DNA of 64,000 nt from an uncultured Opitutia bacterium (lineage in GTDB: Bacteria > Verrucomicrobiota > Verrucomicrobiia > Opitutales > Opitutaceae), in assembly GCA_903896015.1 (NCBI GenBank), contig CAITWF010000016.1, positions 1-64,000 on the forward strand, written 5' to 3'. Each line of letters starts with the position of its first letter. Within the stretch, counting starts at the first letter, position 1. The notes beneath the pieces were generated by a model. That model saw only the letters and a program-made list of their open reading frames with translations. It had not been told where the DNA came from and made no database searches. The position numbers and the translations under genes are program-made. Of the stretch, positions 16,919 through 62,641 are shown one piece after another.

Positions 16919-17021
16919 GGTGGGGCCGGCTCTCCGGACCGGCCTGAGTTCCCTTCCGCGCTTCCTCCGCAGATCCTGGAATCACGTCGAACCCAGGCCG
17001 CTTCGGAGCAGCGGTCCCACC
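16919..17021. repeat. family A palindromic repeat copy
   Basis: It begins GGTGGGGCCGGCTCTCCG and continues with GGCCTGAGTT. It ends with a GCCGCTTCGGAGCAGCGG hairpin and CCCACC, complementary to the GGTGGG at the start. Copies of the same sequence occur at 61651-61805 (inside a cyclase gene) and 62609-62641 (left end only). This copy fills the space between the DUF4340 gene and metF. It would add a spurious 77-residue extension to MetF if the open frame were followed upstream. Confidence 0.8.
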
Positions 17022-17959: not shown

Positions 17960-17961
17960 CG

Positions 17962-18012
17962 CAGGGGCGCGCCTCGCGCGCGCCCGCGGACGTGGACGAG
18001 TCACGCCCTGCC
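17962..18012. repeat. family B palindromic repeat copy
   Basis: CAGGGGCGCGCC...GGACGAGTCACGCCCTG lies between the convergent metF and hypE genes. It is related to the better preserved copies at 34130-34198 and 49774-49828. It may serve as a bidirectional terminator. Confidence 0.65.
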
Positions 18013-22830: not shown

Positions 22831-23627
22831 GGGCGGAAAAGGTGGGCACGAAGCAGCTCATACCATTCCACAAGACCCTCACCGCTCCGCGCCGAGAGCT
22901 GGATGAGTTTTGCCTGGGGCGCGATGCGCCGGACATTTTCGATGGCGAGCGCGCAGTTGAAGCCCAGGGCTTCTGCGACGTCGGTCTTCGTCAGCAACAC
23001 AACGTGGGCCGTCTTGAAAATCGGCGGATACTTCAGCGGCTTCTCTTCGCCTTCCGTCGTGGAGATCAGCACCACGCGCAACTCCTCGCCGAGATCGAAT
23101 TCCGCGGGACACACAAGGTTGCCGACGTTCTCGATGAAGAGCACGCGCACGCCGGTGAGATCGAGTGACTCGACGCTCTTTGCGACCATGCCGGCATCGA
23201 GGTGACACGCCGTACCGGTCGTGATCTGCGCGACCGGCGCATGCGGCCGGGCGAGCCGGCGGGCGTCGTTATCCGTCTCGAGATCGCCGACGACCACCGC
23301 GCACTTGGTTTCGAGGCCGAACTCATCGAGGGTACGCGAGAGGAGCGTCGTCTTACCCGCACCGGGCGACGACACGAGATTTAGCGCCAGGATTTTTCGC
23401 CCGCGAAAATTCGCGCGATTGCCCGCCGCCACCTGGTCGTTTTTCGCGAGCAAGGGGACGTGGAGGTCGACGGTCTTTCTTTCCACCTGCGCGCCTGCCG
23501 CGGCCACCGCCGTAGAAGCTGCCGCCACGGCCGGCACGGTGTTCGCGCGCAGGATCCCCGGCGCCACAAAGCGCAGCACTTTGATGCCAAAGGGCACCGG
23601 TTGATCGCAGCCGCATTCGACGCACAT
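22827..23627 (-). CDS. hypB: nickel-inserting GTPase HypB
   Basis: A 266-residue GTPase that delivers nickel to the hydrogenase together with HypA. The protein starts MCVECGCDQP, the CxxCGC high-affinity nickel site. An Ala-rich linker and the GTPase domain follow (LVSSPGAGKTTLLSRTLDE P-loop, GDLETDNDARR, FIENVGNLVCPAEFDLG, LLTKTD). The His-rich nickel-storage stretch found in some HypB proteins is absent. The frame is open to 24059, but that extension overlaps hypA and looks non-coding, so the ATG at 23627 is used. Confidence 0.95.
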   Translation of the reverse strand: MCVECGCDQPVPFGIKVLRFVAPGILRANTVPAVAAASTAVAAAGAQVERKTVDLHVPLLAKNDQVAAGNRANFRGRKILALNLVSSPGAGKTTLLSRTLDEFGLETKCAVVVGDLETDNDARRLARPHAPVAQITTGTACHLDAGMVAKSVESLDLTGVRVLFIENVGNLVCPAEFDLGEELRVVLISTTEGEEKPLKYPPIFKTAHVVLLTKTDVAEALGFNCALAIENVRRIAPQAKLIQLSARSGEGLVEWYELLRAHLFRP

Positions 23628-23632
23628 ATAGG

Positions 23633-23977
23633 TTAGGACATTTCGATTTGAGCCAGTTCCAATTCGCGGCCTTGCCGGAGGTCGCCCGATAGTTGTCCGC
23701 AGCGCGGGCACGAAAAAACGTAATCCGTCCCCGCGTCGAAATCCTCGGCGCACGCTGCGCACCGCGCCCGGGCCGGCACCGCATCCACCTCGAGCGTCGA
23801 GCCCGCCGCGATCGTGTCGCGCGTGACCACGTCGAAGGCAAATCGCAGCGACTCCGGCTCGACTCCCGCCAGCGCGCCGATCCGGAGCACAATACGATGC
23901 ACCCGCTGCGCGCCACGGCTCCGTGCCTGTTGGAGCACTGCGTCCATGGCCGACGACATAAGGCCGAGTTCGTGCAT
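23633..23977 (-). CDS. hypA: hydrogenase nickel chaperone HypA
   Basis: A 114-residue chaperone. The N-terminus MHELGLMSSA contains the His2-Glu3 nickel site. The zinc site is formed by CAAC and CPRC (CAACAEDFDAG...FSCPRCGQL). It leads the operon hypA-hypB-hypF-hypC-hypD-hypE on the minus strand, divergent from the structural genes. Confidence 0.95.
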   Translation of the reverse strand: MHELGLMSSAMDAVLQQARSRGAQRVHRIVLRIGALAGVEPESLRFAFDVVTRDTIAAGSTLEVDAVPARARCAACAEDFDAGTDYVFSCPRCGQLSGDLRQGRELELAQIEMS

Positions 23978-34129: not shown

Positions 34130-34198
34130 GTAGGGGCGCGCCTTGTGCGCGCCCTCCGACGCTCCTTCAATCCGGGCGTGGACAAGCCACGCCCCTAC
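34130..34198. repeat. family B palindromic repeat copy (well preserved)
   Basis: It opens GTAGGGGCGCGCCTTGTGCG and closes GACAAGCCACGCCCCTAC, with the two ends complementary. Each half also contains its own small palindrome. It fills the gap between sucB and lpdA. Other copies: 17962-18012, 37407-37463, 37979-38038 (decayed), 49774-49828; a short relative lies at 43123-43151. Confidence 0.85.
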
Positions 34199-35609: not shown

Positions 35610-37922
35610 TCACGGATCCATTGGATCCGGCTGCGCCTTGGCCCAAGCTTCGGCGCGCAGCATCAATTCCTGAAAGTGCGGGTCGTTCCGTATCGGGGCG
35701 TAGGCGAGATTGCAGCGTAGGTCATAGCCATTGAAATTGAATCCTTCCGTCTCCATTTCGCGCAAAATCGCGATCGCCTCGTCAGCCCTGCCGAGACGTC
35801 CGTAGGCTGGCGCAGCCCAAAAGCTGAAAAGGAACATGCGCCGGGAGGCGCTGGGCCCGTGCTGCTCTTCTCGTCTCCACTCCTCCAGCAAAGCGAGTGC
35901 CTTCTCGCTGTGACCAAGAACGATTTCTGCGTTCACTGCATCCAACCGCACAAACGGAGCACGATTGCCGCGGGAAAATTCCTTTTCGGCATCAGCACGA
36001 AGTTTTTCCGCCCAGCGGCGCGCCAAGTCATTCAGGCCAACCGCCTCGGCCAGAAAAATCACCTGATATGAAAGATCCTTAGGCAGAGCCGCCAAGACCT
36101 CGATCTCGGCGCGCGCCTCGCGCAGACGCCCCAACTCGGCCAATTCGATCGCCCGCCAAGGCGCTATCCCCGCTTGCCCCGCCGGTGCTCGTCCAATGAC
36201 CGACAACGCCGCTTCAGGCCCACGCCAACATAAGCGTAGAAACACGCGGTTGCCGAACGGAATCACAAATCCGGGCCCCTGAATTGACATGGCTCGCGCA
36301 AAAAGCCGGTCCGCCTCGGCAAATTCACCTCTCACAAGATATTCGATGGCAATTGCATTGAGGGAATCGCCATTTTGCGGATCGAGACTGAGCGCCTCGC
36401 GATAAAAGCGAGATGCTTCCGGCCAATTTCCGGTTTCCTCTTCCAAGTATGCTTGCGCCTTTCGCAGCTCGGCTGTGCCGGCTTGCAGTCCTTCGGCCCG
36501 AGTTAGGTCGCGTCGCGCCGCGGCCAAATCGCGCTCGACGTTGCGAACCCAGTTGGCCCGCATGATGAGCGCCTCGGTCAAATTCGGCTGCAGAGACAGC
36601 GCCTGATCGATGGCCTCGCGCGTGCCGTTGACCACGTCCGCGCCGCGATCGGTGAGACCGCCATAGTTCCGAAATCGCGTTTCCGCGAGCCGCGCCCAAG
36701 CCAGAGCAAACGTTGGATCGGAGGCGACGGCTTGCTCGTATAGTCTGGTTGCATCGCCCGCATATTCAGCGGAGCGGGTTTGCAGCGCTCGGCCGCGAAG
36801 ATAAAAATTGTAGGCGTCGGAATTCTTCGTGAGCACCTCGACGCTACTAGCGAGCTGCCGGCGCGTGAGCTTCTCGACGACGGCGCGGGCGACCTTGTCG
36901 TAAAGGGTGAAGATGTCGGTGATTTCCTCAGTGAACGTGCCGAGTTCCTCGCTCGCGTTGTCGGCCACGCGCGTGAGCGAGACGCGAATCCGCACTTTCG
37001 TGCCAGAGCGCTGCACGCTGCCCTCGACGAGGCGGGAGACACCAAGCGCCTTTGCGATTTCAGCGGCGGAGGCGTTCTTGCCCTTGAATGAAAACGACGA
37101 CGTGCGTCCCGGCACGCGCAAGTCGCGCTCGCGCGCGAGCGCGTTGAGAATTTCCTCCGTCAGCCCGTCCGAAAAATACTCCTGGTCCTTGTCGCCGGAG
37201 AGATTCGCGAACGGCAGGACGGCGACGGCTTTGTTATCCAAACTCGGCGCGGGAGCAACGGGTGCGGATGCCACCGGCGTAGGTTTGGCGGGAGCTTCGG
37301 CAGCCGCCGGCGCGGACGATTTTTTCGAGACGAGCAACGCCGTCGCGATGGCCACGATGATCGCGAACGCCCCGGCGCCCCACACTCGCGGCGGGCGCCT
37401 CCGTTGTTGGGGCGTGGCTCGACCACGCCCGTTTCGGTGGGCGCGCACGAGGCGCGCCCCTACCACTAAACCATTCGGCCCAGCCTCTCCGCCCAGCAAC
37501 GTTTTCACCCGCGCCACAAACGCCGGCGTCGCCTCGCCGTCCGGCAGACGCGTCCACTGCACCGCGCGAAATTCTCCCGGCACCTTCGCCTCAAGGTCGC
37601 GCGTGGCATCAATCACCACGGGCAGCAGGAACGCCTTTTCCTCCGCCATCGCGTGCGTGCGTTGGGCAGCGAGTTTCCACTCGATGCGGAAATATCCCTC
37701 GAGCCGCGCCTGCGTGGCGGCGGAAATCACCGGCACAAACAGCGCGCACTCGGCGATCTGTTTCCGAATCTTCGCATCCCAGGCGTCGCCACCGACGAGA
37801 TCATTCTGATCGAACCACACTTCGACGCCAGCGGCCCGCAGCGCCTCGGTCATGCACGCCACCGCTGCCGCGTCTTGCGACGCGTAGCTGAGAAAAGCCG
37901 CACGGCTGACTTCGACTGGCAT
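35610..37922 (-). CDS. TIR domain - membrane helix - TolB-like - TPR protein
   Basis: A 770-residue protein. TIR domain at residues ~7-125 (FLSYASQDAAAVACM, GVEVWFDQNDLVGGDAWDAK, LFVPVISAATQARLEGYFRIEW; the Glu of the last helix is the candidate NAD-cleaving residue). Linker at ~145-180, one membrane helix at ~181-199, then a Pro/Ala linker. A TolB-N/FlgO-like domain at ~231-345 has the signature AVAVLPFANLSGDKDQEYFSDGLTEEI. TPR-like helical repeats run from ~370 to 770. The TIR domain is predicted cytoplasmic and the sensor part exported. Residues 154-172 are encoded by a family B repeat. Two relatives lie at 45.5-46.5 kb (broken) and 52-53.9 kb. Stress sensor or defence protein are both possible. 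Confidence 0.85.
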   Translation of the reverse strand: MPVEVSRAAFLSYASQDAAAVACMTEALRAAGVEVWFDQNDLVGGDAWDAKIRKQIAECALFVPVISAATQARLEGYFRIEWKLAAQRTHAMAEEKAFLLPVVIDATRDLEAKVPGEFRAVQWTRLPDGEATPAFVARVKTLLGGEAGPNGLVVGARLVRAHRNGRGRATPQQRRRPPRVWGAGAFAIIVAIATALLVSKKSSAPAAAEAPAKPTPVASAPVAPAPSLDNKAVAVLPFANLSGDKDQEYFSDGLTEEILNALARERDLRVPGRTSSFSFKGKNASAAEIAKALGVSRLVEGSVQRSGTKVRIRVSLTRVADNASEELGTFTEEITDIFTLYDKVARAVVEKLTRRQLASSVEVLTKNSDAYNFYLRGRALQTRSAEYAGDATRLYEQAVASDPTFALAWARLAETRFRNYGGLTDRGADVVNGTREAIDQALSLQPNLTEALIMRANWVRNVERDLAAARRDLTRAEGLQAGTAELRKAQAYLEEETGNWPEASRFYREALSLDPQNGDSLNAIAIEYLVRGEFAEADRLFARAMSIQGPGFVIPFGNRVFLRLCWRGPEAALSVIGRAPAGQAGIAPWRAIELAELGRLREARAEIEVLAALPKDLSYQVIFLAEAVGLNDLARRWAEKLRADAEKEFSRGNRAPFVRLDAVNAEIVLGHSEKALALLEEWRREEQHGPSASRRMFLFSFWAAPAYGRLGRADEAIAILREMETEGFNFNGYDLRCNLAYAPIRNDPHFQELMLRAEAWAKAQPDPMDP
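37407..37463. repeat. family B repeat inside the TIR-TPR gene
   Basis: On the minus strand it opens GTAGGGGCGCGCCTCGTGCG and closes with GAGCCACGCCCCAAC, the same two ends as the intergenic copy at 34130-34198. It is translated in frame as residues ~154-172 ([19 protein letters not shown]) between the TIR domain and the membrane helix. The paralogue at 51967-53886 lacks this stretch. Confidence 0.8.
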
Positions 37923-45484: not shown

Positions 45485-46461
45485 CAAACCAATCCTAAGA
45501 GCGGCGCCGACTTTTTTGGATCGGCCAACAGGCGCCTTGAACGCCGGATCTTCGCGCACGTTGTCCCAGTCGGGATCGATGCGGAGCATCGGCACGGTGA
45601 TGCGGCTCGGCACGAGCAACAACTTCGCGAGCAGCGCGACGTTCTCGCGCGGCCGACGAGCCAAAGCGTAGATGCGCGCGAGGGCGAGATCACGACTCCA
45701 GCGAGCGCGCGTCTGGGTGGAGGCTGAGGCCAACTCGACGTGATGCCGCCCCGCGGCGATCGCTTCGTCGATCCGGCCGACGCGGACCAGTGCGGCGGCG
45801 AGATAGCCGGGCTTGTTGGAGAGACCCAATTCGGGCTGCGTCTGGAGTCTTTCCGCGAGTGCGAGGGCCTCGCGCGCTTCCTTCAATGCGTCGTCGGTCC
45901 GCCCTAGCTTAACCAGCACGTCGCTATGGATGCAGAGCAGGTTGAAACGACCGGCGGCGGCGTTCGCCGACACTGAGGCGAGCATCTCTGGCATAAATTG
46001 GTCCGGCCTCGGCAAAGCGCCGCTTGCTCCACGCCCAGGTGGCACGTTGGCCTCCGGTCATCCCGTCGAGCGAGACGGGCAGCTCACCCTAGAGCTGATA
46101 GTGATTCATCGGCAACGCAGGCAGCCGCATCGGGCGTGTCATCGATCACGATTGGCAAAAGAAACGGCTGGTAGGGCGCCATGAGGTGCGAGCGGTCGAC
46201 CGCGAGTTTCCATTCGAGCCTGAAGTAGCCTTCGCCCCGCGCCTGCGTCGCCGCGGAAATCACGGGCACGAACAGAGCGCACTCCCGAATCTGCGTGCGG
46301 ATCTTCCGATCCCACGCGTCGCCGCCCACGAGTTCGTTCCGGTCAAACCACACTTCCACGCCGGCAACGCGCAGCGCCTCGGCGATGCGCGCCACCGCCT
46401 CGGCGTCTTGCGACGCATAGCTCAGGAAGACTGCGCGTTCAGTGGGAAGCAGACCGGACAC
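45479..46461 (-). pseudogene. broken TIR-TPR protein gene
   Basis: The minus strand begins with an intact TIR domain (46461 to about 46120: VFLSYASQDAEAVARI, GVEVWFDRNELVGGDAWDRK, LFVPVISAATQARGEGYFRLEW) that stops at 46084 after 125 codons. A second frame (46045-45479, 188 codons) holds only C-terminal TPR-like helices (DALKEAREALALAERL, KPGYLAAALVRVGRIDEAI, RENVALLAKLLLVPS). The membrane helix and the whole TolB-like domain present in the intact relative at 35610-37922 are missing, and the two parts are in different frames. This indicates an internal deletion plus frameshift. The TIR part alone could still be translated as a 125-residue protein. Confidence 0.8.
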
Positions 46462-49773: not shown

Positions 49774-49828
49774 GTAGGGGCGCGGCTCGTCCGCGCCCGG
49801 CCACGGCGTGCACAAGGCACGCCCCTAC
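49774..49828. repeat. family B palindromic repeat copy
   Basis: GTAGGGGCGCGGCTCGTCCG...CACAAGGCACGCCCCTAC, with complementary ends, directly after the dioxygenase stop codon and before the MhqD-like gene. A transcript of both genes would contain it as a large hairpin. Confidence 0.85.
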
Positions 49829-50556: not shown

Positions 50557-51240
50557 ATGCGCCTCACCTACTTCGGCCATTCGTGTTTTCTCCTCGAAGT
50601 CGAGGGCGCCCGCATCGTCTTCGATCCTTACCTGAAGGACAACCCGCACGGCCGCATCGCGCTCGCGAAGGTCCCGTGCAAATGGATTCTTTGCTCGCAC
50701 GCCCACGAAGATCACATTTGCGACGCGGTCGAACTCTCAAAACTCCACGGCGCCAAGATCGTCGCGCCCTATGAGCTCGCCGAGTATTTCGATTCGCAAA
50801 ACGCCAAGGCCCTCGACCTCATGCCCGGCGGCGGGATCACCTTGCCATGGGGCCGGCTCGACATGACGCACGCCGTCCACAGCTCCGCCCTCGAGCTTCC
50901 CGGCGGAAAAAGCCGCTACATGGGCTCCGCCTGCGGCTTCGTCCTGCGCTCCGAGGGAAAATCCGTTTACCACGCCGGCGACACCGCGCTCTTCGGCGAC
51001 ATGAAATTGATCGGTCGCCACGGCCTCGACGCCGCGCTCCTCCCGATCGGCGACCGCTACACGATGGGCCCGGCCGATGCCGTCGAGGCGCTCAACCTTC
51101 TTCGCCCGAAACTCGCCGTGCCGATGCACTACGACACCACGGACAAAATCCGCCAGAACCCGCACGCCTTCGCCAAGTCCGCCCTCGCCGCCGGCCACAC
51201 CGTGCGTGTGATGGGCGCGGGCCAAACGATTGAGGTGTAA
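50557..51240 (+). CDS. metal-dependent hydrolase, UPF0173 / beta-lactamase fold
   Basis: A 227-residue member of the UPF0173 family. MRLTYFGHSCFLLEVEGARIVFDPYLKDNP, then the metal site CSHAHEDHICDAVEL (HxHxDH), VYHAGDTALFGDMKLI (Asp) and VPMHYDTTDKIRQNP (His). It probably hydrolyses a phosphoester or lactone; substrate unknown. Its last 40 codons (51121-51240) recur at 51823-51942 behind a toxin-antitoxin pair (see that entry). Confidence 0.93.
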   Translation: MRLTYFGHSCFLLEVEGARIVFDPYLKDNPHGRIALAKVPCKWILCSHAHEDHICDAVELSKLHGAKIVAPYELAEYFDSQNAKALDLMPGGGITLPWGRLDMTHAVHSSALELPGGKSRYMGSACGFVLRSEGKSVYHAGDTALFGDMKLIGRHGLDAALLPIGDRYTMGPADAVEALNLLRPKLAVPMHYDTTDKIRQNPHAFAKSALAAGHTVRVMGAGQTIEV

Positions 51241-51815: not shown

Positions 51816-51942
51816 GCCGTGCCCGATGCACTACGACACCGCGAACAAAATTCGCCAGAACCCGCACGCCTTCGCGAAGTCCGCCCTCGCCGCCGGCTAC
51901 ACCGTCCGCGTGATGGGATCGGGGCAGACGATCGAGATTTGA
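51816..51942 (+). pseudogene. displaced second copy of the UPF0173 gene 3' end
   Basis: Codons 51823-51942 read PMHYDTANKIRQNPHAFAKS and continue in parallel to the end of the upstream UPF0173 protein, which reads PMHYDTTDKIRQNPHAFAKS. Both are 40 codons and both end at a stop codon after TIEV or TIEI. The copy also keeps the preceding GCCGTG. It has no start or upstream domain, so it is a remnant. The differences (several synonymous changes plus T-to-A, D-to-N, H-to-Y, A-to-S, V-to-I) show divergence under protein-coding constraint. The TA pair lies exactly between the two copies. Confidence 0.85.
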
Positions 51943-51966: not shown

Positions 51967-53886
51967 TCAGAAGCGATCCACTCCCAGTCGCTTGATGAAG
52001 CGGGTTCGCGTTTCCGGACTAAAGTAGCGTTCCGGTATGCTCATCGGCGTCGGCCAATCCACGACGATGCCAAAGTAGTGCAACGCACCGTCATTGTCCT
52101 GGATCGACTGCTCAAGCCACGCCACCGCCTTCTGTTCTTCGCCGAGATAGGCGTGCAACATCACGAACAGGAAGGCCGGCACATATTCTGACGTAGTCCG
52201 GCGCTTCAACTCTTCCAAAACGGCGCGCGCTTCCGTCGTTCGGCCCGCCCAAGCGAGTCCGCAGCCGTAACTCGCGACCATCCAGGGCAAGCGGTTCGAT
52301 ATTTCGATCGCTTCCATCAATTCGCGCAGGCCCTCGTCAAACCTGTTTTCCGAGATCAGCGCGATTCCCAAGATCCAATGTCCGATCAGAAAACGCGGCT
52401 CCATCTCGGTCACTCGGCGCGCAATTTCCACCGACTTGCCCGATTGTGCGGTAATGCCGACCCAAGCGAGCAACGCATTCGCGATCAGCGAAAGCGGTTC
52501 AATCCGAACCGCCTGCTCAGCCACCTCGACACCCTTGCGGTGGTTACCGTAGACGCTTTCCGACGATGCCGTCCAATATCGTGCCGCGACAAAAGTCGGC
52601 TTGAGTTCAATCGCACGCTCATAGCTGCGCCATGAGGCCGGAAAATCTCGATCATAGACGCCCAATACAAACCCCAGCGCGCAGTGGGCCTCGGCCATAC
52701 GCGGCTCAAGTTCGATGGCTCGCAACGCCGCCGCGCGCGCCTTGGGAATTACGTCGTTTGGCCGCGCATATCCGTAGAAAGCGATGAGCACATAGGCCTC
52801 AGCCAGCCCGGCATGCGCCAAGGCGTAGTCGGGATCGCGTTTCAGGGCCGCCTCAAAGCATTTAAGCCCCTTGGCTAAACCATCGCCCCGCTGATTCCAA
52901 AAAAAGCGGCCCTGGAGGTAGAGCTGGTAGGCCTCCAGATCGTCGGTCGGTGGTTTAACGAGCGGTTGTTGAACGCCACCCGCCAGCTTCGCCTTCAACT
53001 TGTCCGCAATCGTCCGGGCAATTTCATCCTGCACCGCGAAAATATCTTCGAGCCCGCGGTCAAATTTCTCCGACCAGAGATGAAACCCATCCGCGGCGCT
53101 GATAAGCTGCGCGGTGATCCGGATTTTATTTCCCGCCTTGCGGACGCTGCCCTCGAGCACGGTGCGGACGTTGAGCTTCGCCGCGATCGTGCGAAGGTCG
53201 TCGGCCTTGCCCTTGAACGCGAAGACCGACGTGCGTGCCGCCACGCGCAGGTCGGGCACCTGCACGAGCGCGTTGATGATTTCCTCGGTCATGCCGTCGG
53301 AAAAATATTCGTTCTCCGCGTCCGCGCTCATGTTGGCGAACGGCAGCACCGCGATCGATTTGTCGTCGGCCGCGGGCGCTGCCGAAGCGAGTGGGTGGTG
53401 GGTCGCCACCGCCGGTGCAGAGACCGCAGTCGCTCTTGTCGCACCGGTGCGATCGCTCCAGAGCTTCAGGAAACGGGTGAGCACGTCCGGCGGCACCGCG
53501 CCCCCCGGCAGCCGCGTCCATTGCAGCGTGCGAAATCGATCCGGCACATGTGCGCCCGGCTCCCCGGTGTCGTCGATCACGACAGGGAGAATGAAAGGCA
53601 CGCCTGACGCGAAGCCGCGCGCGCGTTCGGCCGCGACATCCCACTCGATCCGGAAATAACCTTCGAGCCGCGCCTGCGTGTTGGCCGAGATGAGCGGCAG
53701 GAAGAGCACACACTCCTTTATCTGGCGGCGGATTTTGGCATCCCACTCGTCGCCGTGCTCGAGCCCCCCCTCTACGTCGCACCAGACTTCGACACCCGAG
53801 AACCGCAGAGATTCACAAATTTTGCGCGCAGCCTCGGCGTCCTGCGAGGCGTAGCTGAGAAAGACGGCCTTGGTGGGTTCAGCCAT
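51967..53886 (-). CDS. TIR domain - TolB-like - TPR protein without a membrane helix
   Basis: A 639-residue relative of the protein at 35610-37922. TIR domain at residues ~5-130 (VFLSYASQDAEAARKICESL, GVEVWCDVEGGLEHGDEWDAK, LFLPLISANTQARLEGYFRIEW). A short Ala-rich linker follows. A TolB-N/FlgO-like domain begins near residue 185 (SIAVLPFANMSADAENEYF, SDGMTEEIINAL) and TPR repeats follow from ~320 (DPDYALAHAGLAEAYVLIAF, IELEPRMAEAHCALGFVLG). No hydrophobic segment is present, so unlike its relative it should be entirely cytoplasmic. The frame is open 42 codons further upstream, but the ATG at 53886 starts the conserved region. Confidence 0.85.
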   Translation of the reverse strand: MAEPTKAVFLSYASQDAEAARKICESLRFSGVEVWCDVEGGLEHGDEWDAKIRRQIKECVLFLPLISANTQARLEGYFRIEWDVAAERARGFASGVPFILPVVIDDTGEPGAHVPDRFRTLQWTRLPGGAVPPDVLTRFLKLWSDRTGATRATAVSAPAVATHHPLASAAPAADDKSIAVLPFANMSADAENEYFSDGMTEEIINALVQVPDLRVAARTSVFAFKGKADDLRTIAAKLNVRTVLEGSVRKAGNKIRITAQLISAADGFHLWSEKFDRGLEDIFAVQDEIARTIADKLKAKLAGGVQQPLVKPPTDDLEAYQLYLQGRFFWNQRGDGLAKGLKCFEAALKRDPDYALAHAGLAEAYVLIAFYGYARPNDVIPKARAAALRAIELEPRMAEAHCALGFVLGVYDRDFPASWRSYERAIELKPTFVAARYWTASSESVYGNHRKGVEVAEQAVRIEPLSLIANALLAWVGITAQSGKSVEIARRVTEMEPRFLIGHWILGIALISENRFDEGLRELMEAIEISNRLPWMVASYGCGLAWAGRTTEARAVLEELKRRTTSEYVPAFLFVMLHAYLGEEQKAVAWLEQSIQDNDGALHYFGIVVDWPTPMSIPERYFSPETRTRFIKRLGVDRF

Positions 53887-53990
53887 TGAAGGTGGAGCCA
53901 CGAAAACGCCGGAAACGCCGCGCGAAGTCGAGCGCAGCTTGAATGCGCGAACCGGAATCTCTCGCTTGCCCGCGCCGCGGCCCGGCTTCA

Positions 53991-56081
53991 ATGTCGGCTC
54001 AAAGCATGGCATTTCCGAAACCTCCCGCCGTCCTCGCGCTCCCTACCGTGCGCGCCGCGGACTTGGATCAACCCGATGCGCGACTCCGCCTCTACGCGTG
54101 GATGCAGCTCGCCCGCACGACGGACAACCGCATCCTTGAGCTTTTCCGTCAGGGACTGATCAAGGGCACTGTCACCGGTGGCCAGGGTAACGAGGCGCTC
54201 GCGGTCGCGGTCGCGCTCCTCGCCGACAAGGCGACCGACGTCGTCTCGTTCACGCACCGCGGGCTTGCCGGCCACCTCGTGTGGAGCGGCCACCTCTGCG
54301 ACCACCTCAACCAGTATTTCGCCAACGCCGGCAGCCCCACGCACGCCCGCGAGGGCAACATCCACCACGGCGATCCAGCCAACCGCTCCCTGCCGATGAT
54401 CAGCCATCTCGGCATCATGCTCTCGAACGTCTGCGGCGCCACCGACTCGCAGCGCCGCCTCGGCCGCCCCGCCGTCGGCTTTGCGACGTTTGGCGATGGC
54501 GGATCGAGCACTGGCGACATCCACGAATCGCTCAACCTCGCCTCGCTCCTCTCGCTCCCGATCGTGTTTCTCATCGAGAACAATCGCTATGCCTACTCGA
54601 CGCCCGTCAGCGAGCAGTTTACCGCCGACACCGAGCTGTGGCGACGCGCCGCCGGCTACGGCATGGAAGGTTTCGCTCTCGACGCCACCGATCCCGAGGG
54701 CTGTGTGCGGACGCTCGACGCCGCAATCGCGAAAGTCCGCGCCACCTCGCGCCCGATTCTGATCGAGTGCGACACGCTCCGGCTCCGCGGCCACGCGGCT
54801 TACGACACCTGCGATTATCTTCAGCCCGGCGAGAGCGAGGGTTTCTTTGCCCGCGATCCGCTCCCGAAATACCGCGCGCAACTCGTCGCCGCCCTAGGCG
54901 CCGCGCGGCTCGATGCGCTCGATGTCGAGCTCAACGCGTTCCTCGAAGCCTGCGTGAAAGTCTCGCTCGCCACGCCGCGCCCCTCCCCCGCCGGCATGGA
55001 GTCCGACCTCTTCGCGCCGCCCGCGTCGTCACAGCCGTGGGTGCCAAGCGTCACGTCTTCGAACGAAAATCGGGTTCCCGGGCAAAGCGACCATTCAGCA
55101 TCCAAAATCGAAAATCTCAACGCCGCCCAGGCCCTGAACGCCGCTCTCCGCAAAATTCTCACCGAACGCCCGGAGTCGCTCGTGCTCGGGCAGGACATCG
55201 CGACCTATGGCGGCGCCTTCAAAGTCACCGAGGGCCTGCTGAAGGATTTCGGGCGCGCGCGCGTCTTCAACACCCCGCTCGCTGAAAGTGCCTGCACCGG
55301 CTGGGCCATCGGCCTCGCCCTCAACGGCCACCGTCCGATCGAGGAATTTCAGTTTGCCGATTTCGTGTCGGAAGCCTTCACCCAGCTCACGCTCAACGCT
55401 GCCACGATGCACTTCCGCTCCGGCGCCAAGTGCCCGATCGTGTTTCGCCTGCCGTGCGGCGGCGGCCTCACGTTCGGATCGTTTCACTCGCAGGAACTCG
55501 AGTCCGTGCTCCTCGCGATGCCCGGCTTCAAGGCCCTTTATCCGAGCACGCCGCAGGATGCGTTCAACGCCCTCCTCGCCGCCTACGAAGATGACAATCC
55601 CGTCCTCCTCTTCGAGCACAAGGCGCTGTACCGCCGCGGCCGCGCGCCCGTCGCGTGGGACGCCAACTACCGCGACGTGTGGTCGCCGAAAAAACTCCGC
55701 TCCGGCGAATTTGCCACCGTCGTCACCTACGGCGAAATGGTTCACGTCGCCAGTGAAGTTTGCATCTACTTCGCCGAAGAATACGAAAAAACCTTCGACC
55801 TCTTCGATCTCCGCGCGCTCGCGCCGCTGCAGCTCGACGCCATCGAAGCGTCGCTCGCGCGCACCGGCCGTCTGATCGTCCTGCACGAAGGCCGCCTCAC
55901 GCACGGCTTCGGCGCGGAGCTCGTCGCGCGTCTCGCAGAAAAATATTTCTCCGCGCTCAAAGCCGCCCCGCTTCGCATCGGCGCCCTCGATCTGCCGGTG
56001 CCGTTCGCGCCGGAACTGGAGCAGGCATTCCGCCCGACGAAGGAAAAAATCATCGACCGCATCGCGGCGTGGATCGGATGA
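53991..56081 (+). CDS. 2-oxoacid dehydrogenase E1, fused alpha and beta subunits
   Basis: A ~696-residue thiamine-diphosphate enzyme. Residues ~25-345 are E1-alpha (VTGGQGNEALAVAVALLADK, THRGLAGHLVW, TFGDGGSSTGDIHESLNLAS, IENNRYAYSTPVSEQ). Residues ~375-690 are E1-beta (LVLGQDIATYGGAFKVTEGL, NTPLAESACTGWAIGLALNG, PCGGGLTFGSFHSQELES, VTYGEMVHVASEV, VLHEGRLTHGFGAELVARL). Fused E1 of this type usually acts on branched-chain 2-oxoacids, but pyruvate or acetoin are possible. No E2 gene is adjacent. The linker at residues ~359-376 is encoded by an interspersed repeat. Start ATG at 53991 or 54006. Confidence 0.9.
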   Translation: MSAQSMAFPKPPAVLALPTVRAADLDQPDARLRLYAWMQLARTTDNRILELFRQGLIKGTVTGGQGNEALAVAVALLADKATDVVSFTHRGLAGHLVWSGHLCDHLNQYFANAGSPTHAREGNIHHGDPANRSLPMISHLGIMLSNVCGATDSQRRLGRPAVGFATFGDGGSSTGDIHESLNLASLLSLPIVFLIENNRYAYSTPVSEQFTADTELWRRAAGYGMEGFALDATDPEGCVRTLDAAIAKVRATSRPILIECDTLRLRGHAAYDTCDYLQPGESEGFFARDPLPKYRAQLVAALGAARLDALDVELNAFLEACVKVSLATPRPSPAGMESDLFAPPASSQPWVPSVTSSNENRVPGQSDHSASKIENLNAAQALNAALRKILTERPESLVLGQDIATYGGAFKVTEGLLKDFGRARVFNTPLAESACTGWAIGLALNGHRPIEEFQFADFVSEAFTQLTLNAATMHFRSGAKCPIVFRLPCGGGLTFGSFHSQELESVLLAMPGFKALYPSTPQDAFNALLAAYEDDNPVLLFEHKALYRRGRAPVAWDANYRDVWSPKKLRSGEFATVVTYGEMVHVASEVCIYFAEEYEKTFDLFDLRALAPLQLDAIEASLARTGRLIVLHEGRLTHGFGAELVARLAEKYFSALKAAPLRIGALDLPVPFAPELEQAFRPTKEKIIDRIAAWIG
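55065..55116. repeat. family C repeat forming the E1 alpha/beta linker
   Basis: Read on the minus strand it runs GATTTTCGATTTTGGATGCT ... GTCGCTTTGCCCGGGAACCC then GATTTTC. The same order of words occurs on the plus strand at 56084-56139. Here it is read in the opposite direction, in frame, as part of the fused E1 (ENRVPGQSDHSASKIENL). Confidence 0.8.
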
Positions 56082-56083
56082 AG

Positions 56084-56222
56084 GATTTTCGATTCTTGAT
56101 GCTCAACTGTCGCTTTGCTGGGTACCTCGATTTTCGATTAGCCGCCCCATTCGACCCATCACTCTCATTCGTCTTATTTCCCCCGTGCCCCAATCCAAAA
56201 TCGATAATCTAAAATCGAAAAT
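56084..56222. repeat. family C repeat between the E1 gene and kdsC
   Basis: Left part 56084-56139: GATTTTCGATTCTTGATGCT ... GTCGCTTTGCTGGGTACCTC then GATTTTCGAT. Right part 56191-56222: CCAAAATCGATAATC and AAAATCGAAAATT, complementary in character to the left part. The right part supplies the first dozen codons of kdsC. Confidence 0.7.
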
Positions 56223-56706
56223 TCCGGCCGTCCGCTGGTCCGCGATCCGCCTCTTCGCCATGGACGTCGACGGCGTGCTCACCGACGGCACCCTTCACGT
56301 TTCGTCTGACGGCAACGAATCCAAAATTTTCTCCGTCCTCGACGGGATGGGCCTGAGGCGCCTCGAACAAGCCGGGGTCGCCGTCGCCTGGATCAGCGGA
56401 CGCGCGTCGGGAGCGACGACGGTCCGCGCCGCCGAGTTGAAGATCCCGCACGTCATCCAAGGCCGCACCGACAAGCTTACTGCGTTGCAGGAACTCGCCA
56501 CGCGCCTCGCCCTCGATGCCACGCAGTGCGTCTATATGGGCGACGACGACATCGACGCGCCCGCGATCGCGTGGGCCGGCATCGGCGTGGCGCCGTCCGC
56601 CGCCATGCCCGCCGCCATCGCCGCCGCCAACCTCGTCCCCCAGCGCGCCGCCGGACACGGCGCCGTGCGCGAAATCTGCGAACTGATCCTCGCCGCGCGG
56701 GTCTAG
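56185..56706 (+). CDS. kdsC: 3-deoxy-D-manno-octulosonate-8-phosphate phosphatase
   Basis: Dephosphorylates KDO-8-P in lipopolysaccharide inner-core synthesis. The 173-residue capless HAD protein has FAMDVDGVLTDGTL (nucleophile), VLDGMGLRRLEQAGVAVAWISGR, VIQGRTDKLTALQEL, and MGDDDIDAPAIAWAGIGVAPSAA. It ends with GHGAVREICELIL, the KdsC substrate-site tail. The start is taken as GTG at 56185, which places residues ~2-13 (PQSKIDNLKSKI) in family C repeat DNA; no better start lies between it and the catalytic core. It is followed by lptC-lptA-lptB, the same order as in E. coli. Confidence 0.93.
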   Translation: MPQSKIDNLKSKIPAVRWSAIRLFAMDVDGVLTDGTLHVSSDGNESKIFSVLDGMGLRRLEQAGVAVAWISGRASGATTVRAAELKIPHVIQGRTDKLTALQELATRLALDATQCVYMGDDDIDAPAIAWAGIGVAPSAAMPAAIAAANLVPQRAAGHGAVREICELILAARV

Positions 56707-56721
56707 CGCCCCGCCCTCATC

Positions 56722-57177
56722 TTGAAACGTTCGTTTCCATTCCTCGCTCTCTTCGCGGCGGGCTTTGTCGGCGCGCAATCAACCGCACCCCTCACCCCCG
56801 GCGACGGCACGCTCGGCCCGCCCGCGAAAAACTGGGTGCTCCCGCTCTTTACCGACAAAGAGGGCTTTCGCGCGATGACGATCCGCGGCTCCGAGGCGCA
56901 GGCCGTCGGCGCCAAGCGCATCGAGATCACCAACCTCAACATCACCGCGTTCATCGGCGACGCCACCGCGCGCGTCGATGCCGTGCTGCTCGCCCCGTCC
57001 GCGCATTTCTTCCCTGACGACAAGCGCGCCGCCGGTGAAAAAAATGTCCGCTTCATCCGCGACGAGATGGAAGTCACCGGCGAGCGGTGGACCTTCAGCC
57101 AGACGGAGAAAAGAGTTTTAATCGATTCCAACGTGCGCGTAATTTTGCACGCTCAGCTTCCCGCCATTCTCAAATGA
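56722..57177 (+). CDS. lptC: LptC-like lipopolysaccharide export protein
   Basis: A 151-residue protein from a TTG start, with an N-terminal signal (SFPFLALFAAGFVGAQ) and a beta-rich rest (FRAMTIRGSEAQAVGAKRIEITNLNITAFIGD ... VTGERWTFSQTEKRVLIDSNVRVIL) consistent with the beta-jellyroll of LptC. Sequence similarity to E. coli LptC is not obvious to me; the assignment rests on fold pattern and on the order kdsC-lptC-lptA-lptB. It should bridge LptA to the inner-membrane transporter. Confidence 0.7.
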   Translation: MKRSFPFLALFAAGFVGAQSTAPLTPGDGTLGPPAKNWVLPLFTDKEGFRAMTIRGSEAQAVGAKRIEITNLNITAFIGDATARVDAVLLAPSAHFFPDDKRAAGEKNVRFIRDEMEVTGERWTFSQTEKRVLIDSNVRVILHAQLPAILK

Positions 57178-60567: not shown

Positions 60568-62595
60568 ATGCCTTACCCCGAGCAACATTTCCGCTGGACG
60601 TTCGAGCTCGTTTCCCCGCCCGAGGCCCTCTGGCCGCTCGTTTCCAACACCGATCGCTTCAACCGCGACTGCGGTTACCCGCCGATCACCGTCGTGCCTA
60701 CGCCCTCGCAACAGGCGGCCACACTCACCAACGCCCGCCGCATCCGCGTGAGTCTCATGGGGCTCGTGATTGAGTGGGACGAACTCGCCTTCGAGTGGCT
60801 CGCTCCCCAAAGGTTCGGCGTCGATCGCACGTATTACAGCGGACCGGTCGCGCGCATGGTGATGGCTTGCGAACTCACTCCGCGGGACGACGGGGGCTCG
60901 AGTCTCCACTACGACATTCGGCTCACCCCGTCGTCACTGTTCGGGAAAATTGCCCTGCCCTTCACGATCGGAAAAAAAGCCCGCGCGACGACCGAACGCG
61001 TATTCCGCCACTACGACGAAATCGCGCAACGCGGCCTGCGCACCTCGCAACTCGCACAAAGACCCGCGCTCGCCGCCGGCGGCGTAGCCCGCCTCGCCGC
61101 GATCAGCCGCGCCCTCGTTTCCGACGCCGCACAACCCGCCTCGCTCGTCGCAAAGTTGCAACGCTTCCTCACCACCGCCGACGATCTCGCCGCCGCGCGC
61201 ATCCGGCCCTACGCGCTCGCTGACGAGTGGCACACCGATCGGCGCGAGACGCTCAAATGTTTTCTCCATGCCACGCGCGCCGGCCTGCTCGACTTCAGCT
61301 GGGATCTCGTCTGCCCGCATTGCCGCGGCGCGAAGGCCCCCCGCACCACGCTCGGCGAAGTAAAGGCGACCGCGCACTGCGACACCTGCAACGTCGATTT
61401 TACCGCCCACTTCGATCAATCGGTCGAACTTACGTTCACGCCTAACGCCTCCGTGCGCGCCGTCCCGCGCATCGACTACTGCATAGGCGGTCCGCAGGTC
61501 ACGCCCCACGTTGTGGCCCAGCAGGCGCTGCGTCCCGGCGAGACCCGCGCGTTGCCGCTTTCGCTTGTGCCCGGCCGCTACCGCGTGCGCTCGCCGCAGC
61601 TCACCGCCCAACACGCGTTTCGAGTTGAGCCAGCCGCGGGTGGGTCATCAGTGGGTGGGGCCGGCTCTCCGAGCCGACCTGAGTTCCAGCCACCGCTCCT
61701 CCCGCGCCCTACGGAAATTACCTCTGAATCCAGGCCCGCTCGGAGAGCGGACCCCTCCTCCAATCTCGCGTCCACCGACGCCGCTTCGGAGCAGCCGCCC
61801 CACCCGTTAAACATCCGGATCGATCTCGCCGCCGCGTCGCTCCCCGAATCCTCCGTCGCCGCCAACGGCGAACTCACCCTCGTCAACGCCACCGATCGCG
61901 ACCACCTCGCGATCGTCGAACACCTCGCGTGGAGCGATCAATCGACAACCGCCGCCGAAGTCACCTCGCTCCAACTCTTCCGCGATCTGTTCTCCCACGA
62001 GGTTCTGCGGCAGGGCGAACAGATCAGTGTCGGCACGATGACGGTCGTCTTCACCGACCTGAAAAACTCCACGCAGCTTTATCAGGACATCGGCGACGCG
62101 CCGGCCTTCGGCCGCGTGCTCACGCATTTCGAAATCCTCAAGGCCGCCGTCGCCGCCGAGGACGGTTGCATCGTGAAGACGATGGGCGACGCGATCATGG
62201 CCGTCTTCCCGCGCCCCGTCGCCGCCCTCCGCGCGATGCTCCACGCGCAACACTGGCTCGCGCACCCGACCGATTTTGCGCTGCCCGCCGGCCTCAACGT
62301 GCCGCCGTCATCGTTAAAACCGCTCGCGTTGAAAGCCGGCCTCCACTGCGGCCCCTGCCTCGCGATCAACCAAAACGATCGCCTCGATTACTTCGGCACA
62401 ACCGTAAATCTCACCGCCCGTCTCTGCGGCCTCTGCACGGGCAAGGACGTCATTCTCTCGTCCGCCCTCAGCGCAGATGCCGAGATCACCGCCCATCTCG
62501 CCGCCTCCAAGCCCGTGCTCACGACCTACCGCGAAACCGCCAAACTCAAAGGCTTCGGTGAGGCGGCCTTCGAGGTCTGGCGGATTACCCGATAG
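60568..62595 (+). CDS. class III adenylate/guanylate cyclase with SRPBCC and zinc-ribbon (DUF5939-like) modules
   Basis: A 675-residue soluble protein. Residues ~5-150 resemble an SRPBCC/polyketide-cyclase-like fold (FRWTFELVSPPEALWPLVSN). Residues ~180-350 carry a winged region and a zinc ribbon (CPHC...CDTC). Residues ~362-413 are a disordered linker encoded by a family A repeat. The cyclase domain starts near residue 480: VVFTDLKNSTQLYQDIGDAP (first metal Asp), VKTMGDAIMAVFPRP (substrate Lys and second metal Asp), HCGPCLAINQNDRLDYFGTTVNLTARL (the NxxxR catalytic pair). All catalytic residues seem present, so cAMP or cGMP synthesis is likely. Confidence 0.88.
   Translation: MPYPEQHFRWTFELVSPPEALWPLVSNTDRFNRDCGYPPITVVPTPSQQAATLTNARRIRVSLMGLVIEWDELAFEWLAPQRFGVDRTYYSGPVARMVMACELTPRDDGGSSLHYDIRLTPSSLFGKIALPFTIGKKARATTERVFRHYDEIAQRGLRTSQLAQRPALAAGGVARLAAISRALVSDAAQPASLVAKLQRFLTTADDLAAARIRPYALADEWHTDRRETLKCFLHATRAGLLDFSWDLVCPHCRGAKAPRTTLGEVKATAHCDTCNVDFTAHFDQSVELTFTPNASVRAVPRIDYCIGGPQVTPHVVAQQALRPGETRALPLSLVPGRYRVRSPQLTAQHAFRVEPAAGGSSVGGAGSPSRPEFQPPLLPRPTEITSESRPARRADPSSNLASTDAASEQPPHPLNIRIDLAAASLPESSVAANGELTLVNATDRDHLAIVEHLAWSDQSTTAAEVTSLQLFRDLFSHEVLRQGEQISVGTMTVVFTDLKNSTQLYQDIGDAPAFGRVLTHFEILKAAVAAEDGCIVKTMGDAIMAVFPRPVAALRAMLHAQHWLAHPTDFALPAGLNVPPSSLKPLALKAGLHCGPCLAINQNDRLDYFGTTVNLTARLCGLCTGKDVILSSALSADAEITAHLAASKPVLTTYRETAKLKGFGEAAFEVWRITR
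61651..61805. repeat. family A repeat inside the cyclase gene
   Basis: GTGGGTGGGGCCGGCTCTCC and GACCTGAGTT at the left and GCTTCGGAGCAGCCGCCCCACCC at the right reproduce both ends of the intergenic copy at 16919-17021. An additional GCTCGGAGAGC palindrome lies in the middle. It is read through in frame as a Ser/Pro/Arg-rich linker (VGGAGSPSRPEFQ and on). Confidence 0.85.
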
Positions 62596-62608: not shown

Positions 62609-62641
62609 GGTGGGGCCGGCTCTCCGAGCCGGCCTGAGTTT
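62609..62641. repeat. family A repeat, left end only
   Basis: GGTGGGGCCGGCTCTCCGAG then CCGGCCTGAGTT: a perfect internal palindrome (GGCCGGCTC...GAGCCGGCC) directly after the cyclase gene. The right half of the element is missing or unrecognisable before the next gene. Confidence 0.75.

Follow-up and report, generated by a model that had tools for sequence, protein, structure and literature searches.

Short direct repeats with a 7-bp unit have been described in several bacterial groups. The TAACTGA repeats of marine Beggiatoaceae, cyanobacteria and Bacteroidetes are 7-bp direct repeats, many of them at start codons, and some enter reading frames, mostly at protein ends (PMC4679880). The GGGNATC heptamers of Xanthomonas and Nostoc form G-quadruplexes and are under-represented in coding regions (PMC4692102). 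Both families lie mostly outside genes (PMC4679880, PMC4692102). Rickettsia palindromic elements are about 150 bp long, carry a conserved open reading frame (ORF) of their own, and are reported in frame in unrelated genes and also outside genes (PMC10969869). Here we describe a family of 7-bp direct repeats with the unit AAAATCS (AAAATCC or AAAATCG), encountered in a 64,000-nucleotide (nt) stretch of contig CAITWF010000016.1 from an uncultured Opitutia bacterium of the Opitutaceae (assembly GCA_903896015.1), hereafter the window. The repeat forms part of the linker of a fused 2-oxo acid dehydrogenase E1 gene and the first codons of the neighbouring kdsC gene. It is the same kind of thing as the TAACTGA and GGGNATC heptameric direct repeats, with another unit. 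We consider it likely (roughly 70%) that such frame-indifferent 7-bp repeats have been seeded recurrently into tolerant linkers, loops and N-termini.

Like the TAACTGA repeats, the AAAATCS repeats are 7-bp direct repeats in short sets dispersed over the genome; unlike them, they have an unrelated, stop-free unit and lie inside domain matches in seven genes. The TAACTGA forward strand has stops in every frame and therefore provides no internal linker in that orientation (PMC4679880). The GGGNATC heptamers likewise are a dispersed 7-bp unit found close to gene starts and ends, with opposite preferred strands at the two (PMC4692102), but the unit here is A-rich and its arrays lie inside genes in 14 of 28 cases in this genome and in 5 of 32 in two relatives. 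As with the Rickettsia palindromic elements, AAAATCS arrays stand in frame in unrelated genes and also outside genes. They differ from those elements in being 7 bp or 53-56 nt long, in not forming a stable palindrome and in encoding a heptamer peptide that is independent of frame. No description of AAAATCS-type repeats in Opitutaceae or Verrucomicrobia was found among the top matches in the open-licence PubMed Central literature, which is weak evidence of absence, and the only paper found with the string AAAATCGAAAATC was an unrelated one on cancer.

The features of the locus, in window coordinates, are as follows.

53943..56081, plus strand: fused 2-oxo acid dehydrogenase E1, alpha preceding beta, both domains in a single-frame ORF (ORF list; PF00676, PF02779 and PF02780; relatives), with the conserved part from about 54009
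55064..55116, plus strand: 53-nt repeat copy in the E1 linker, composed of a left heptamer piece, a core and right heptamers, coding for NENRVPGQSDHSASKIEN
55074..55098, plus strand: core segment of the linker copy, related to GTTACCGAGCGAAGCGACAGTTCAG with 5 mismatches
55099..55116, plus strand: heptamer pair CATCCAAAATCGAAAATC in the E1 linker
56084..56136, minus strand: second 53-nt copy, reversed, 2 bases past the E1 stop codon (56079-56081)
56102-56126, within the reverse copy: core of the spacer copy, 4 mismatches to GTTACCGAGCGAAGCGACAGTTCAG
56185..56706, plus strand: kdsC, KDO-8-phosphate phosphatase, an ORF with a GTG start (TIGR01670, 133.1 bits against a cut-off of 106.95)
56192..56222, plus strand: forward heptamer tract AATCCAAAATCGATAATCTAAAATCGAAAAT, 4.4 copies of the 7-bp unit by Tandem Repeats Finder, kdsC codons 3-13 (QSKIDNLKSKI)

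The linker sits between PF00676 (residues 32-295) and PF02779 (residues 371-542) of the window E1. Its repeat copy and the reverse complement of the spacer copy form a 53-nt inverted pair, 81% complementary and separated by 967 nt. A BLAST search with 61 linker nt against the whole 4.96-Mb assembly recovered the spacer copy with an E value of 7.7e-8, confirming the sequence-only reading that the linker DNA is the reverse complement of a repeat in the E1-kdsC spacer. That reading had also pointed to further genomic copies as a check. The spacer provides one, whereas no third full-length 53-nt copy was found in the 4.96-Mb assembly, where the third-best match covered query bases 26-53 and numerous short AAAATC-type pieces were recovered. 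In an AlphaFold2 model of the window E1 (35 sequences; mean predicted local distance difference test score, pLDDT, 79.3), the ten-residue block of lowest confidence was 351-360 (pLDDT 46), which is the repeat-encoded linker. Residues 353-364 fell below 50 and formed the longest of seven such segments, the six others being short.

The kdsC tract had been taken for the opposite end of a repeat at 56084-56139, supplying both the first codons of KdsC and its start region. It is instead a separate forward tract, 55 nt further on. Codons 3-13 are indeed encoded by the repeat, but the GTG start codon lies outside the tract. This GTG (56185) is the closest in-frame start ahead of the conserved W..IRLFAMDVDG segment of the window KdsC. 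Among 27 forward kdsC arrays (relatives plus the window, called with a 13-nt pattern at up to 2 mismatches, so that some arrays are short), 26 have an in-frame start codon 1-8 codons upstream. The stretch from the array to the conserved W..LFAM segment is free of in-frame ATG, GTG or TTG in 26 of the 27 as well. The kdsC array thus appears to be translated rather than to form a leader, and one repeat family serves both the E1 linker and the KdsC N-terminus, as had been proposed. An Rfam search of 53900-56800 detected no known structured RNA up to E 1. The hairpin of the reverse copy after the E1 stop with the forward kdsC tract was not significant (148-nt fold, -26.5 kcal/mol, z -1.27), and we therefore claim no RNA function for the E1-kdsC gap.

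The AAAATCS unit is abundant in this genome. The pattern AATCBAAAATCBAAAATC (up to 2 mismatches) gave 60 matches, which fall into 28 clusters, and its reversed control gave 2; by reading the matches, one strand of the unit is rich in A and the other in T. A phylum sample of 194 genomes was scanned with a stricter pattern (up to 1 mismatch), and 43 genomes had at least one match. Nine of 19 genomes of the same family had at least 10 matches (maximum 241). Outside the family, 62 matches were counted in G346, 41 in G365, 13 in G318 and 11 in G380; the AAAATC word is therefore not confined to the family, and the high counts in G346 and G365, which belong to other families, may reflect independent origin or transfer. 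The reversed control gave 0 in most genomes of the sample, 18 in G289 and 1-5 in eight others (2 each in G020 and G366).

Arrays were assigned to genes with a codon-usage score trained on 464 kb of this genome, together with Pfam, and the start and stop classes were set by eye from printed flanks. Each of the 14 internal arrays lies within a single stop-free frame, the best-scoring one on either side of the array, and all 14 are in the sense orientation. Eleven of the 28 arrays stand at the start of a downstream gene on its sense strand, one of them in the N-terminus of signal peptidase II. A single array (L014) is at a stop codon in reverse orientation, and two were not classed (L051 and the reverse-strand array of L220). 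By the codon score, none of the 28 arrays in this genome is antisense inside a gene. The internal array falls inside a single Pfam match in seven cases (AMP-binding, BcrAD_BadFG, AlkZ-like, exosortase, sulfatase, glycosyltransferase 9 and glycerate kinase). The other seven lie outside or between Pfam matches, in the genes for a U32 peptidase, an S55-type protein, ribonuclease R, a BatD-domain protein, YbeY and the fused E1, and in the match-less L214. In the two complete relatives (93 matches in 30 loci, 32 arrays), the internal arrays (L230, one of L232, L242, L250 and L256) were all sense and none was called antisense. In the BadF/BadG-type kinase the array occupies a variable-length loop, as seen in 20 sequences, one from this genome and the rest from 19 other genomes (one further match, which had no locus, was left out). 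This loop holds a related array, CAATCCAAAACCCAAAACCCCAAATCGAAAATT, in a same-genus genome and unrelated segments of various lengths in others.

By reading the complete genome G003 (L241, L251, L243 and L239), we also noted six inverted pairs of heptamer arrays about 55-410 bases apart. Some of these pairs flank GC-rich, palindromic-looking stretches, as in the E1-kdsC gap.

The coding properties of the unit bear on this placement. Three heptamers make 21 bases, or seven codons, and AAAATCC/G was found by script to give one cyclic, stop-free peptide in all three sense frames. The sense peptide (KIENPKS-like) is hydrophilic, with a mean hydropathy of about -2, and the reverse strand encodes a Phe-rich, hydrophobic peptide (about +0.8 to +1.1). 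Arrays can be tolerated in genes because three units equal seven codons and yield the same stop-free hydrophilic peptide in every sense frame; insertions of the right total length can therefore serve as flexible linkers or N-terminal tags. This property of the sense-frame peptide may explain the strand bias.

The same two sites carry other heptamers in relatives. E1 loci numbered 109 (the best 80 of 171, 28 of 30 from a search of family genomes, and the window); 98 remained after 11 identical sequences were dropped, and kdsC was located for 90 of these. Tracts periodic at lag 7 were present in 18 of 98 E1 linkers and in 33 of 90 kdsC 5' regions. Among the controls, lags 4-6 and 8-13 yielded 0-6 tracts, E1 coding segments of equal length none, and shuffled sequences no more than 2. 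Long linkers had self-similarities of 0.396, 0.445 and 0.416 at 7, 14 and 21 bases, a signal absent in short linkers, and they carried heptamers of several unrelated sequences, or none. The words at the E1 and kdsC sites included AAAATCC/G, AGCTCTC, ACTCCGC, AATCCGC and others, as well as a few near-homopolymers. On a FastTree tree built without the linker columns, the AAAATC linker required 7 changes, long versus short linkers 18, and the forward AAAATC array at kdsC 13. The sisters L152 (AAAATC) and L159 (ACTCCGC), on a branch of 99 (starred), have different words in the same place. The window E1 groups with L112, whose AAAATC linker has no core (support 89), and with L057, whose linker is short (99, starred).

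Some arrays are joined to a core, giving a unit of 53-56 nt. A core related to GTTACCGAGCGAAGCGACAGTTCAG within 3 mismatches was found at 21 places in 10 of 252 family genomes, and control matches gave none. When the 23 core copies (the two of the window plus 21 from relatives) were examined, 13 had heptamers on both sides. Nine of these 13 were in frame within coding sequence, both flanks of each having a coding signal (the E1 linker, L092, L098, L099, L100, L103, L104, L108 and L111), read in two frames as ENRVTERSDSSASKIEN-like and SKIELPSAATVQNPKSKI-like peptides, and none of the 10 cores that lack heptamers on both sides was in frame in coding sequence. Reading of L121 showed that its E1-kdsC gap likewise holds a related core in forward orientation. 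A core 20-mer, GTTACCGAGCGAAGCGACAG, recurs nearly unchanged in several genera, not flanked by heptamers on both sides and without a coding signal (L091, L093, L095, L096, L097, L101, L105, L107 and L109); in L101 and L109 the start of the core is repeated nearby in reverse complement. REP (repetitive extragenic palindromic) elements with GTAG/CGTC tags are reportedly short dispersed repeats, some copies of which are intergenic (PMC3733652). The core differs from them in having neither a stable palindrome nor a GTAG/CGTC tag, and a REP element was ruled out by the fold of the core 20-mer (0 kcal/mol, no stable structure).

The E1 gene was fused and open in 98 of 98 distinct sequences, a set chosen by similarity to a fused query, which favours fused genes (L077 starts at query residue 82). 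Among the best 80 of 171 loci, the nearest named E1 was L112, from an uncultured Opitutae metagenome-assembled genome (81% identical), and the labels were Opitutaceae, Opitutae/Opitutia, genera of that group, or Verrucomicrobia. By class, the 98 linkers comprised 53 short ones (under 15 amino acids, none with a heptamer tract), 8 with AAAATC, 10 with another heptamer and 27 long ones without a tract. A search of 41 family genomes with E1 gave a single near-full-length match in 35. G028 matched at E1 residues 82-690 with the remainder on another contig, G027 in two segments of one 875-amino-acid frame and G014 at residues 413-690 only, and G009, G010 and G031 had only distant homologues (about 30%). 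Most of the deepest branches, defined by the midpoint root, have short linkers (L082-L084, L079, L081, L075, L078 and L065), and the deep branches L080, L142 and L073 have long linkers without a heptamer tract. Judging from the tree, the early linker probably had about 10-11 residues without heptamers. Outside the family, five members of the class (G270, G273, G276, G431 and G440) have E1 relatives of 36-38% identity with exactly one internal stop, a sequence pattern consistent with adjacent separate alpha and beta genes. Unbroken relatives of about 30-33% identity also occur outside the family (e.g. G445, G252 and G288), so the fusion may predate the family or have arisen more than once. Because all 98 are fused, with one-stop and unbroken relatives beyond the family, the E1 fusion dates back at least to the origin of the sampled family, and it is older than the repeat. 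A distant split pair (G000:C82:21860-22795 and 22918-23847; E1-alpha 27%, E1-beta 33%) was noted in the same genome as the fused E1.

The sequence-only reading had the repeat, lying in the old gap between the alpha and beta genes, create this fusion. Repeat DNA does form the linker in the window and in several relatives, and the one-stop genes outside the family would fit an ancestry in separate genes, but the proposal is very improbable: every E1 in the set is fused, more than half of them with short linkers that have no tract, the deepest branches are either short or long without heptamers, and other linkers use other heptamers. Fused relatives with unrelated linkers (short, other-heptamer or heptamer-free), which that reading had itself named as grounds for refutation, were thus found in substance, although the linkers differ in length. 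We also think it unlikely that a transposase acting in trans moves the 53-nt unit as a small transposable element, in the manner of Rickettsia palindromic elements or of REPs moved by REP-associated tyrosine transposases (RAYTs), with the heptamers as the ends of the element. Such an element would account for the recurrence of a heptamer-flanked core in unrelated genes of other genera, with nine in-frame copies in two frames, and homologues of Y1 transposases (PF01797) are encoded in 4 of 4 genomes searched. The single PF01797 match of this genome is, however, barely over the cut-off (24.7 against 23 bits), 26 of its 28 arrays are not part of any 53-nt copy with a core, and differing heptamers occupy the same sites. 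Furthermore, the core 20-mer does not fold stably, and the full unit shows no excess of structure over shuffled sequence (consensus, z -0.84; linker copy, z +1.81).

Plain 7-bp microsatellites that originate de novo through slippage where linkers and loops are unconstrained, without any transfer from locus to locus, would suit sites that vary in length and carry many unrelated heptamers. This explanation is doubtful, since a single word, AAAATCS, reaches 60 matches against 2 in the control and the 53-nt copies share, besides their heptamers, a core that recurs in other genera. The arrays might instead be regulatory, acting as A-rich leaders or protein-binding sites at gene starts with the in-gene copies as by-products; such a role has been proposed for the TAACTGA repeats of Beggiatoaceae (PMC4679880). 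The 11 start-proximal arrays in one orientation and the kdsC arrays beginning 1-8 codons after the closest start codon in 26 of 27 cases would agree with it. Half of the arrays of this genome lie inside genes, however, and the kdsC array appears to be translated, and we give regulation as a general account little credence.

The reading we prefer is that lineage-specific 7-bp direct repeats, some copies of them with a dispersed core of about 25 nt, would have been seeded repeatedly where extra sequence is tolerated: in the E1 linker, in variable-length protein loops, in first codons or leaders and, reversed, just past stop codons. Existing arrays in the same genome would be copied to new places, by template switching or gene conversion, and their length would then be altered by 7-bp slippage. 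Purifying selection would remove antisense and frame-breaking cases, leaving the orientation bias. Several observations weigh against recurrent seeding or limit its reach. Ten of the 19 same-family genomes have only 0-3 AAAATC matches, and 27 of the 32 arrays in the two complete relatives lie outside genes ('boundary/other'). Array gene assignment used a simple codon score and Pfam rather than annotation; L042, L214 and L221 have a weak score on one or both sides, L214 being without a Pfam match, and L256, for which the script tried sense first, passes as antisense too, though at a lower score. The 33 kdsC tracts include near-homopolymers (L117 and L160), and the AGCTCTC sense peptide, although stop-free, is mildly hydrophobic (mean 0.5). 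The general excess of 7-bp tracts in 464 kb is small (5 against 0-2 in shuffles), genome-wide spread was scored for AAAATC alone, and a scan of the same 464 kb for periodic tracts at a stricter threshold turned up nothing but a single lag-23 tract. Only two copies of the 53-nt core exist in this genome, and its mobility there is therefore putative. The spread of the repeats is itself something we infer. A bolder version of recurrent seeding, tentative and with the odds against it, is that an Opitutaceae system actively writes a lineage-specific 7-bp word and that the words are selected to be stop-free and frame-indifferent. The same DNA would then act as a leader or N-terminal tag, as an inverted stop-proximal partner and as a protein linker, with lineages swapping words and keeping sites.

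The window contains other repeats. A GTAG-type palindrome, GTAGGGGCGCGCCTYGTGCGCGCCC (up to 3 mismatches, both strands), occurs at 17961-17985, 34130-34154, 37439-37463, 49774-49798 and 49804-49828, with none in 100 shuffles; it looks like a REP family, unlike the AAAATCS repeat. Three copies of a GC-rich repeat, GGTGGGGCCGGCTCTCCGRRCCGGCCTGAGTT, are at 16919-16950, 61654-61685 and 62609-62640 (none in 100 shuffles). Three related 268-nt stretches (37523-37790, 46056-46323 and 53487-53754; the second and third with 62% and 71% identity to the first) may be paralogous genes, since the third falls within a 681-amino-acid minus-strand ORF (51967-54012) that adjoins E1. A 114-nt direct repeat, 89% identical, is present at 51121-51234 and 51823-51936.

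For annotators of these genomes, the linker sequence in such proteins can derive from repeat DNA instead of reflecting a conserved function, and the kdsC start in many of them is probably upstream of the repeat. The same site with different words, with or without an insertion, offers many natural replicates for testing the tolerance of linkers and N-termini. With all its frames open, a 7-bp unit of this kind provides a natural route from a non-coding repeat to a part of a bacterial protein.

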